A stretch of 47,583 nt of DNA from Clostridia bacterium (GTDB lineage: Bacteria > Bacillota > Clostridia > Christensenellales > Borkfalkiaceae), in assembly GCA_017626305.1 (NCBI GenBank), contig JAGAIW010000017.1, forward strand, positions 1 through 47,583, written 5' to 3'. Each line of letters begins with the position of its first letter. Within the stretch, counting starts at the first letter, position 1. A program made the translations under genes and the position numbers. A model generated the notes under the pieces. That model made no database searches. It was not told the DNA's origin and was given only the letters and a program-made list of their open reading frames with translations. Positions 2-4,356 of this stretch are shown one piece after another.

Positions 2-706
2 GGACAAGATTTTGGACAAGCAAGAATGAAAAGTGAAGAAATTTTCTCCACTTTAGAAGAAATAGTCTTGTCTACTGAGACAGGAACTTTCTATGTGTTC
101 TACGACAAATTGCAGTTAGTTCAAAGTTTCAATGTGCCAAAGTTTATCGAAAATGCAGATTGTAGATTGACTTTATATAAAAACTGTAGAAACACAAAGA
201 AGATAGCTGAAACGTCTTTTAAACCTATAGGAAAAACGCCAAAACTTTTTGATTTTGCTATACACGGCGTTCTCCCCGAAATCTCTTTTGTTTCGGAAGA
301 AGATATTAAAGAGCGCATTGATTTAATTATAAAACAAGCAAATGCTAACGGCATTAAAGATATTCAAATATTAAGTTGTGTCCCTAGTGGCGAAAGTATG
401 TTAGAGAGTTATCTTGAAAATGATTTTTATAACTATAAAGGGCAAAAAATACCATTTACTACTTGTAGAAAATTTAAAGGCTTAGAGGCTGATAAGATAA
501 TTCTTGTGGATGTTAATAAAAATTCGATTATAGATAACAATAAGTTGTTCTACGTTGGTTCATCAAGAGCAAGGTTTGAGTTAAGTATTTTGGCAACTCT
601 TTCTTATAGCGATTGTGTTGAAATCTTACAAAGCCTTAACTCTATCGTCAAGAAAAATAATCCACAATTAACCCTCTCAAAAGTATTGGGTTGTAAAATG
701 ATATAA
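2..706 (+). CDS. Superfamily 1 (UvrD/Rep-like) helicase, C-terminal part, cut by window edge
   Basis: The frame is open to the left window edge, so the 5' part of the gene is missing; the first internal ATG is at 26. The first visible residues are GQDF, which fit the end of a Walker B / motif II of the DEGQDF type. FYVFYDKLQ followed by LTLYKNCRNTKKI matches helicase motifs III-IV (the D-x-x-Q and N-x-R-N-T blocks), FTTCRKFKGLEADKIILVD matches motif V, and LFYVGSSRARFEL matches motif VI of the UvrD_C_2 type (usually YVALTRA). The protein is therefore an ATP-dependent DNA translocase or helicase, with roughly 230 residues visible. Its AT-rich composition and its position in an island suggest a mobile-element or defence helicase, but the missing N-terminus (NERD, nuclease or other domain) would decide that. 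A strong hairpin terminator follows at 724-766. Confidence 0.8.
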   Translation, partial: GQDFGQARMKSEEIFSTLEEIVLSTETGTFYVFYDKLQLVQSFNVPKFIENADCRLTLYKNCRNTKKIAETSFKPIGKTPKLFDFAIHGVLPEISFVSEEDIKERIDLIIKQANANGIKDIQILSCVPSGESMLESYLENDFYNYKGQKIPFTTCRKFKGLEADKIILVDVNKNSIIDNNKLFYVGSSRARFELSILATLSYSDCVEILQSLNSIVKKNNPQLTLSKVLGCKMI

Positions 707-2983: not shown

Positions 2984-3435
2984 AATAAAAAAACGACTCT
3001 CCAAATAAAATGAAAAGTCGTGTTTTGAGCATAATATGCCCCTATCTTAAATTATATTTTGATGCATTTAATTGCATCCCTTAAAAATTATAGCGTAAAC
3101 GCTTTTGATACATACGTGCAACTTTTATAAGTTGCCTAAAAATTCTAATACTTTATTAAGATTACATTAATAATTTCTTGCAACACAAAGTTGCCCTATA
3201 AAACAAAAAAGGCAATTATCCCCTAGGGTAATTGACACATTTTAATCGCTTAAGGGCATACTATCCCTTAGCAATTCTTACAATGACACTTTGTAACTCT
3301 GATAACGATTTCTTCCCTTTAGGAAAATCTGATACTCTTTTCGCCTTGCGAGATGCTGATACTGTGATACTTCTGATAACTGTATTCTTCTCAATGGAAG
3401 AATGTGAAACTTTACTACAAGACTGACATCTTGTG
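2984..3435 (-). ncRNA. Large hairpin-rich non-coding RNA candidate
   Basis: A consensus promoter (3441-3469) would start a minus-strand RNA near 3435. The RNA would end at a hairpin with a 10-bp stem (3021-3012 with 3002-2993, G-U pairs included) followed by TTTTTTTATTTT. In between, about a dozen short stems follow one another, for example CAAGA/TCTTG near 3430, ATTCTTC/GAAGAAT near 3390, TTACAA/TTGTAA, TTGCTAAGGG/CCCTTAAGCGA, CAATTA-CCC/GGGG-TAATTG, GCAAC/GTTGC, GCAACTT/AAGTTGC (3135-3118), AGCG/CGCT and GATGCA/TGCATC (3078-3061). The motif TATCAG occurs four times, with a near copy TATCAC, between about 3380 and 3295. No frame in it has a credible start site. At about 450 nt it is in the size class of ornate large RNAs such as ROOL and GOLLD, but I cannot assign it to a known class by eye. 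Confidence 0.7.
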
Positions 3436-3440
3436 CATAT

Positions 3441-3469
3441 ATAATAGCAAAACAAAAAAGTATTGTCAA
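3441..3469 (-). promoter_or_regulatory. SigA-type promoter of the large ncRNA
   Basis: TTGACA (3469-3464), a spacer of exactly 17 nt, then TATTAT (3446-3441) on the minus strand. The -35 is perfect and the -10 has one mismatch. No coding frame begins within the next 400 nt, so the product is an RNA. Confidence 0.8.
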
Positions 3470-3589
3470 TCGGAAATGATTGTATTTATAAAACTTTTTG
3501 AAAGAAAATATTTTTTATGACTGCCGGGGGAGTAGCTGCTTTTTCTTATCATTTTTATCTCGGTTTTAGATATACACCCTAACCCCAAA

Positions 3590-3890
3590 ATTATCCCTAT
3601 ACCCATAATTATCTATATCGAGAATGTAGTATTCTTCTTTTGTTGCGAATACAACAAAGAAGAATTGATTATTTATACCGAGAGAGATAAAATTATATCC
3701 CCGCCCTCACTTTGTTCGGGCGGGGATATGCTTATATAATTCGTTTCGCACAGATTATGTCTCTCTCGGGCGAACATCGCCAATTTTTAGTCAAGGTCAA
3801 ACATCCAAAAAGTTCTTTATTTTCCTACATTTTTAGGGGTTTTTTATATTCTCTTTTGCATATGTAAGAAAAATTTGGCGATTTTTTGCA
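3590..3890. repeat. Nested inverted repeats between ncRNA and ssrA
   Basis: No gene is seen from 3470 to 3942. Within it are: an imperfect hairpin ATTCTTCTT/AAGAAGAAT (about 3630-3665); an outer pair CCGAGAGAGA (near 3680) with TCTCTCTCGG (near 3768); inside that a perfect 12-bp stem ATATCCCCGCCC/GGGCGGGGATAT (about 3697-3731); and a further pair ATCGCCAATTTTT (near 3777) with AAAAATTTGGCGAT (near 3882). ATTATC is also directly repeated near 3590-3612. The stretch could be a second structured RNA, a transfer or replication origin, or the recombination end of the island. Confidence 0.55.
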
Positions 3891-3942
3891 TTTTTTACAG
3901 GTGTTTTTGGCTCCATCTTTTAGGTGTTTGGAGATAAAAAGT

Positions 3943-3985
3943 AAATCCGAACCATTCGCTTGTTACAAGAATTTGGTTCGGATTA
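3943..3985 (-). terminator. Terminator of ssrA
   Basis: On the minus strand ATCCGAACC and GGTTCGGAT form a 9-bp stem, with further pairing in the loop, followed by TTACTTTTTATC. It starts about 9 nt after the tmRNA CCA end. Confidence 0.8.
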
Positions 3986-3993
3986 TACTGACT

Positions 3994-4356
3994 TGGTGGA
4001 GCTGGTCGGAGTTGAACCGACGTCTTACGCGGCTGCCAAAAAACTTTCTACATACTTAGTTTATCTACTTTCTTAACCGTATACCGCGGGTAAACACGCT
4101 TTACACGGCGCAGGAAGCTAAATAATCTCCAAAAAACACTTCCCGATTTTAAGAAGATTTTTCCGTCTAATTGACGCCGCGACCCTATCCGACGGATAAA
4201 ATAGGCGCGACGCTCGTTTTAAAAAACGAAGTTACGCTGCAAGAGCGTATGCATTATTATTTGCATTTAAATTTAGGTGGAATGTTTTTGCGCAGGCACT
4301 CCGTCTGCGGTATGCTTATCCTTTCGCTCACCGGCAATCGAATCCGGTACAGCCCC
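3994..4356 (-). ncRNA. ssrA: tmRNA (transfer-messenger RNA)
   Basis: The minus strand begins GGGGCTGTACCGGATTCGAT (4356 downward) and ends GTTCAACTCCGACCAGCTCCACCA-type sequence at 3994. GGGGCTG pairs with CAGCTCC as the acceptor stem, and CCA is encoded. The tag frame begins at resume codon GCA (4264-4262) and reads ANNNAYALAA then TAA (4234-4232). It ends in ALAA, as needed for recognition by ClpXP-type proteases. tmRNA rescues ribosomes stalled on non-stop mRNAs with SmpB. The 3' end is a common integration target, which fits the AT-rich accessory DNA immediately downstream of it. A precursor leader of about 45 nt contains a hairpin AACAACGC/GCGTTGTT just before the mature 5' end. Confidence 0.97.

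Follow-up and report, generated by a model that had tools for sequence, protein, structure and literature searches.

A putative new leader–terminator family in mobile elements of Clostridia, with what looks like an enlarged member beside ssrA

Introduction

The closest described systems are found in mobile DNA. In the part of the Tn916 report on which we draw, terminator T1 is described as insulating the element genes from host promoters, and canT, a 452-nt RNA, as letting polymerase pass terminators (PMC11658703). For pLS20, the excerpt that we cite attributes terminator passage to the conAn2 RNA together with the ConAn1 protein (PMC8955417). Large ornate RNAs form a further group, for which the cited section gives stems P1 to P19 in ROOL and a length often above 800 nt in GOLLD (PMC12286853).

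The locus considered here lies in a 47,583-nt stretch of DNA from a Clostridia bacterium (assembly GCA_017626305.1, contig JAGAIW010000017.1), which was analysed as a whole and is called the window below. An earlier reading made from the letters alone (the sequence-only reading) had proposed that positions 2984 to 3469, on the minus strand, hold a large structured RNA with its own promoter and terminator, of the ROOL or GOLLD kind or of a new class.

Results

Layout of the window leader

The feature is a noncoding operon leader upstream of a DUF6100 gene, and all of its parts lie on the minus strand. Its promoter, TTGACA-17-TATTAT (3469-3441), scored 11/12 in the promoter scan and is the same in two genus relatives, G013 and G338. 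Behind it, folding places a 7-bp hairpin with TGTCAG in its loop (3417-3434), followed by an array (3330-3411; site search and local folding) in which five sites of the AGT(A/T)TCA type, at 3411, 3381, 3371, 3363 and 3336, alternate with hairpins (3403-3384 and 3355-3339, by folding). Another folded hairpin (3311-3327) comes after the last AGTATCA site and is followed by the core CAGAGTTACAAAGTGTC, an exact sequence match at 3285-3301; in the window and G013 only, folding adds an extra hairpin (3244-3276) to the interval between core and T1. T1 (3200-3236) is a terminator-like hairpin (3236-3211) with a T run to 3200, kept in G013 and G338, while the interval from T1 to T2 (3027-3199) is poorly conserved and longer in the window, as judged from the alignment. 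T2 (2987-3026), supported by the alignment and by terminator scanning, which lists it at 3021-2993, is an intrinsic terminator. The sequence GAGTTACANAGTGTC has one exact occurrence in the window's genome.

T1 is weak in the window (-6.4 kcal/mol, short of the -8.5 cut-off of the terminator scan) and stronger in the relatives, for which that scan gives -9.9 kcal/mol (G013) and -10.7 (G338); a simpler terminator scan does not list it at any of these three loci. Because this hairpin (3236-3200) lies inside the feature, the unit likely runs from the promoter to T1, about 237 nt, and is followed by T2 and then by the genes, namely the DUF6100 gene (221 aa, 2127-2792, E=4.1e-25) and the gene of a second protein paired with it (about 399 aa, 950-2149), which has no Pfam or NCBIfam match, both on the minus strand. 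Between T2 and DUF6100, no sense promoter of at least 9/12 was found in G013 or G338, and the only one in the window overlaps the start codon.

The sequence-only reading had identified the promoter and the closing terminator correctly, as it had the TATCAG repeats. Among the sequences compared, four exact copies of TATCAG within about 80 nt occur solely in the window and G013; clusters elsewhere have two. Of the self-contained transcript that it pictured, the promoter, the terminator and the noncoding character hold up, but not the single independent large RNA, the internal T1 having been missed.

Its statement that the feature holds no credible gene was borne out. The window and G013 share an open frame of 63 codons, but it starts within the promoter and was rejected as a coding region; in G338 it stops after 26 codons, its peptide has no match in a Pfam search, and the codon changes between the window and G013 are, by eye, mostly non-synonymous. 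No frame kept together with a start and a ribosome site was found in the window feature, and candidate leader peptides ahead of T2, which read MLKTTFH in both G013 and G338 and come from a longer frame in the window, were set aside for their weak ribosome sites.

The hairpin-rich structure was confirmed, with differences between its parts. The entire 461 nt have z=-4.27, with 0/100 shuffles folding as well, and the 5' array, treated as short local hairpins (span 40), has z=-3.36 (0/200 shuffles) in the window, 1 shuffle reaching the observed fold in G013 and 54 in G338. With no span limit the array is ordinary: it has z=-1.48 in the window, where 25/300 shuffles match it, which is not significant, and 24 (G013) and 162 (G338) shuffles reach the fold in the relatives. 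The interval between T1 and T2 folds strongly in the window only (1/300 shuffles; G013 167, G338 97), and the long-range pairing of the window fold was dropped because G013 does not have the same fold.

On the far side of the promoter, the gap between ssrA and the leader (3480-3980, minus strand) is rich in local hairpins (z=-4.19, 0/200 shuffles) and contains a GC-rich inverted repeat at 3687-3737.

Relatives in the genus

In G013 and G338 the leader stands at the same place as in the window, before DUF6100 and the second protein. A blast search of 57 genomes with the G013 RNA gave matches in four, namely the window's genome, G013, G338 and one with a 21-nt match only. Searches with the window RNA (matches in 3/61 and 17/296 genomes), the G338 RNA (20/398) and the first 278 nt of the G013 RNA (2/391) agree with this in that the long matches of all leader blasts come from the window, G013 and G338 only, the others being short stretches. 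Distant blastn searches of plasmids and phages with the window RNA and one family copy gave no result, nor did searches of viral contigs by exact pattern or by protein.

The promoter hexamers and the spacing of 17 are kept in all three loci, even though spacer identity is only 65%. Over the 241 columns that run from behind the -10 box to T1, identity between the window and G013 is 95%; elsewhere it is 55% (150 nt upstream), 58% (T1 to T2), 48% (DUF6100) and 45% (next gene). G013 and G338 show the reverse pattern, with 53% in the array and 81-95% in the downstream parts. Since a piece of 95% identity lies between neighbours of 45-58%, and the pattern is reversed for G013 and G338, the stretch from the start to T1 looks, in these alignments, to have been exchanged as a cassette.

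A family of short leaders

A covariance model of the window and G013 arrays (R1) was searched in 301 genomes and had matches in ten, among them G350 (E=7.4e-7), G338 (0.014) and G013, here at a second place (0.031); reading of the G350 sequence and of the second G013 place showed that the core continues into the terminator. Matches in G484 (E=3.8e-5) and G014, whose sequences were read, and in G321, G621, G154 and G406, judged from alignments, were not accepted. A motif search of viral contigs led to an IMG/VR contig (L158) with two copies 8 kb apart; of the motif matches there (16 stretches in one search, 10 in another) only the two L158 copies have, by eye, a promoter and a terminator, and the others were rejected.

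A second model (R2), made of the core and T1 from five copies (alignment A8), found eight places in five of 311 genomes of the class: one in G897, three on one contig of G679, 9-10 kb apart, two in G889 at a distance of 9 kb, and a single place in both G947 and G879. The last two are without promoter and sites and were rejected, but are still rows in alignment A10. In 57 genomes of the genus R2 had matches in seven, those in G032, G008 and G000:C188 being rejected by eye on the same grounds. A partial R2 match, L196 (G002:C37:4810-4847), has a AGAGTGTC terminator before a 471-aa gene.

Ten short members were accepted, 83-92 nt long, in five genomes and the one IMG/VR contig, with at most three per contig. 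All ten have a promoter-like match of 9-11/12 that ends 6-9 nt before the leader, and the 5' end of the leader reads AGTTTCA or AGTATCA in eight, with variants in G350 and G013:C22. Behind this 5' site lies a hairpin of varying sequence, P1, which in a test by mononucleotide shuffles of a stretch of our own choosing beats shuffles at p<0.05 in 9/10 members. AGTGTC at the end of the core is invariant in all ten. The best core form is CAGAGUUACANAGUGUC, in the short members the last core bases are the 5' arm of T1, and CAGAGTTACANAGTGTC is exact in three short members as well as in the window and G013:C16.

At 11 loci of the leader family, Rfam at gathering matched no family except tRNA, and the family was found neither in the Rfam copy nor by word searches of the literature, which miss unnamed motifs. 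Within the window feature, Rfam 15 has no match at gathering, and its matches up to E=5 (4227 families) are all below gathering, with ROOL, GOLLD, OLE and HEARO not among them; the kinship that the sequence-only reading had suggested is thus not supported, and its other suggestion, a new class, agrees with this result. On the best reading, the leader–terminator family in mobile elements of Clostridia is new and not in the Rfam copy searched.

Covariation, which had been proposed as a check on the structure, came out differently for these three loci and for the wider family. The window, G013 and G338 alone offer no pair with two-sided changes, but the T1 stem of the wider set of relatives does. 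In the five rows of A8, two of 12 T1 pairs change on both sides, with shuffles reaching the covariation score in 7/500 cases and the pair count in 69/500. In A10, whose 13 rows were fitted to the model, include G338 and the doubtful G947 and G879 and leave out the window, 5/10 T1 pairs show two-sided changes, 96.9% of cells are paired as against at most 55.4% when slid, and of 500 shuffles none reached the covariation score and two the pair count. Compensatory changes in the T1 helix are therefore present in the leader family as represented by A10, without the window.

The window copy shares with the short members the kind of promoter and has the exact core and five AGT(A/T)TCA-type sites with hairpins; it departs from them in that a 5' hairpin precedes the sites and another hairpin parts the core from T1. 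Under R2 it scores 18.5 bits (E=0.54) and G013:C16 22.6 bits (E=0.063), and the R2 genus search lists neither. Its apparent membership is thus argued by the exact core and by R1, and not by R2. The window array looks like the single AGUWUCA-hairpin unit of the short members set in tandem, and such tandem units would account for the TATCAG repeats; judged on these sequence comparisons, the window leader looks like an enlarged member of the family, an 83-92-nt element with tandem hairpin units.

Genes behind the leaders

The genes identified behind short members are of mobile-element types. Copy a of L158 is followed by an SSB-like gene (Pfam SSB, E=5.7e-5, below cut-off) and copy b by a 378-aa gene and then a YqaJ gene; by eye, similar-looking genes recur, SSB-like behind L184 and L185 and of about 380-400 aa behind L183, L188 and L189. 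The second G013 copy precedes a gene encoding a phage-integrase domain (Phage_int_M, E=3.3e-8), and DUF6100 follows the leader in three islands (window, G013 and G338). The G350 sequence runs out with its contig, and for the third copy in G679 the gene that follows was not classed. For eight short members the gene start could be placed, 125-295 nt from the 5' end of the leader, and in five of these eight a further terminator-like hairpin lies between leader and gene.

The islands

The sequence-only reading had also placed the feature in mobile DNA at ssrA, and this gene (tmRNA) is indeed present at 4356-3994 on the minus strand. It is the probable integration site of the window island; its 3' flank varies among 30 genus loci, as expected of an integration site, and G017 has the same flank as the window. 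DUF6100 occurs in three of 57 genus genomes, those of the window, G013 and G338, and a larger element in the window's genome contains another DUF6100 gene, for which blastn finds no such leader. The G013 and G338 islands carry genes matching defence models.

A DUF6100 profile scan of genome contigs gave 46 loci. With the window added, a DUF5697-type gene precedes DUF6100 in 32/47, as in a longer conjugation operon, and is absent in 15, one of which ends inside DUF6100. The terminator scan covered 13 of these 15, L049 and L060 being too near a contig end, and a sense terminator lies ahead of DUF6100 in 10/13 islands (shuffles 0 or 1), a count that includes differing leaders and also L045, where the terminator may belong to the upstream gene. 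The leaders of L040, L046, L054, L055 and L059 have terminators and one common TATCAG, are otherwise different and were not taken as members; they are similar to one another, and their strong hairpin and its T run lie 26-43 nt ahead of the DUF6100 start. In L045, L050, L053, L057 and L029, short TTGGCA-type direct repeats, seen by eye, lie upstream of the leader before the promoter region and are perhaps recombinase or replication-protein sites.

Three observations concern the surroundings of the window island and its site. At the contig end, positions 26-706 (plus strand) encode a helicase C-terminal fragment whose best PADLOC match is RTasNERD-Hel (E=1.1e-10); since this model represents a helicase from defence systems that use a reverse transcriptase, a system of this kind may be located past the end of the contig. 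The ssrA 3' end with its terminator-like flank (window 3934-4017) recurs at 80% identity at about 1501-1584 of L103, behind a tRNA-Gly-like gene of the same genome, perhaps as a shared element end. In six genus relatives (L129, L130, L136, L139, L140 and L144) the common sequence TCCAGCACACGTCACTAACC lies directly behind ssrA and is perhaps the end of a different element.

Discussion

We demonstrate a family of leaders with a common layout, covariation of T1 and recurrence before several gene types. A promoter, a conserved part overlapping a terminator arm, terminators and then genes make up the layout of a regulated-termination leader, and we regard it as about an even bet that its members are leader terminators through which regulated termination governs operons of integrative elements, with the window copy as an enlarged member. 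The conditional read-through itself, the factor, the trigger and the continued working of the window copy are what we infer beyond these observations. A strong promoter would yield a transcript that carries AGUWUCA at its 5' end or close to it, followed by a variable hairpin, the core entering T1, often a second terminator, and then the genes. By default, transcription would end at T1 or T2, so that the element genes are off, and the two terminators would also shield these genes from upstream transcription, here that of ssrA. Once the element is mobilised, a factor recognising AGUWUCA, the hairpin or the core might block T1 or let RNA polymerase pass, and the operons that carry the leader would be switched on together. 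Repeated copies in one element suggest that such a factor is common to them.

A more speculative extension, which we think unlikely, is that the leader constitutes a shared regulatory RNA code, in which several operons of large elements are targets of one element-encoded factor; small defence-carrying islands would have copied the leader so that a helper's factor switches them on, and the extra AGUWUCA-hairpin units of the window and of G013 would increase the affinity for this factor or, as a decoy, divert it from the helper.

The exchange of the start-to-T1 piece as an apparent cassette (95% between the window and G013, with neighbours at 45-58%), ended by a terminator, would also suit a free-standing trans-acting small RNA of 80-240 nt that targets other transcripts or serves to titrate a protein, in which case its position before operons would be incidental. 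We consider this improbable, as copies within one element precede different genes at a similarly short distance (125-295 nt in eight members) and complementarity to the downstream leader is not consistent (67/200 shuffles for the window, 3/200 for G013).

Terminators alone could be plain insulators, and an insulating role has a precedent in T1 of Tn916, as given in the part of that report cited here (PMC11658703); terminators also stand ahead of DUF6100 in leaders of different sequence. A constitutive insulator, whose strong terminators block incoming transcription with no regulated read-through while the genes use other promoters, would however need no promoter of its own, and each short member has a strong one just before T1; the conservation of the core and of the 5' sites likewise speaks against this explanation, which we rate as quite improbable.

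Direct repeats near a mobilisation-type operon might instead mark a DNA-level site, an origin of transfer or a set of replication-protein binding sites, that resembles RNA by chance, but the repeats are irregularly spaced, the covariation of T1 is that of a helix, and promoter and terminators keep a fixed order, so that this is very doubtful. A large ornate RNA of the ROOL or GOLLD kind, brought to mind by mobile DNA beside a tRNA-like gene and by a whole stretch that folds better than shuffles, is scarcely credible given that none of these families is among the Rfam matches to E=5, that a terminator-like hairpin lies inside the feature, that the long-range fold of the window is absent from G013 and that the short members are below 100 nt.

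If regulated termination is indeed the function, the leader could give small islands a route to listen to helper elements. In any case, an RNA family missing from the Rfam copy searched marks where operons of mobile elements begin in gut Clostridia, where it may serve as a sequence tag for finding such elements, and the question becomes testable whether one factor reads the same leader before several operons and thereby couples their expression to mobilisation.

Like ROOL and GOLLD, the family consists of noncoding RNAs that belong to mobile DNA and often lie near tRNA genes, but a short leader differs from the many-stem RNAs described in the cited section, and no model matches here (PMC12286853). 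Terminator-type attenuators have the same order, with a promoter, then a conserved stretch of leader that overlaps the terminator's 5' arm, then genes, whereas the conserved part here matches no Rfam family. The conAn2 RNA of pLS20, likened by description only, lies close to the beginning of a conjugation operon in which terminators have to be passed; according to the excerpt cited, it works with the ConAn1 protein, whereas the leader family is known here from the RNA alone (PMC8955417). A tested parallel, likened by function only, is Tn916. As described in the part of the report used here, canT occupies a single 452-nt region at the opposite end of the element and is processive (PMC11658703), whereas the leaders are mostly 83-92 nt long, stand before several operons and overlap a terminator arm; common to both T1/canT and the leader family are a noncoding RNA and intrinsic terminators before genes for DNA processing or transfer, an arrangement in which, in Tn916 as there reported, termination controls expression (PMC11658703).
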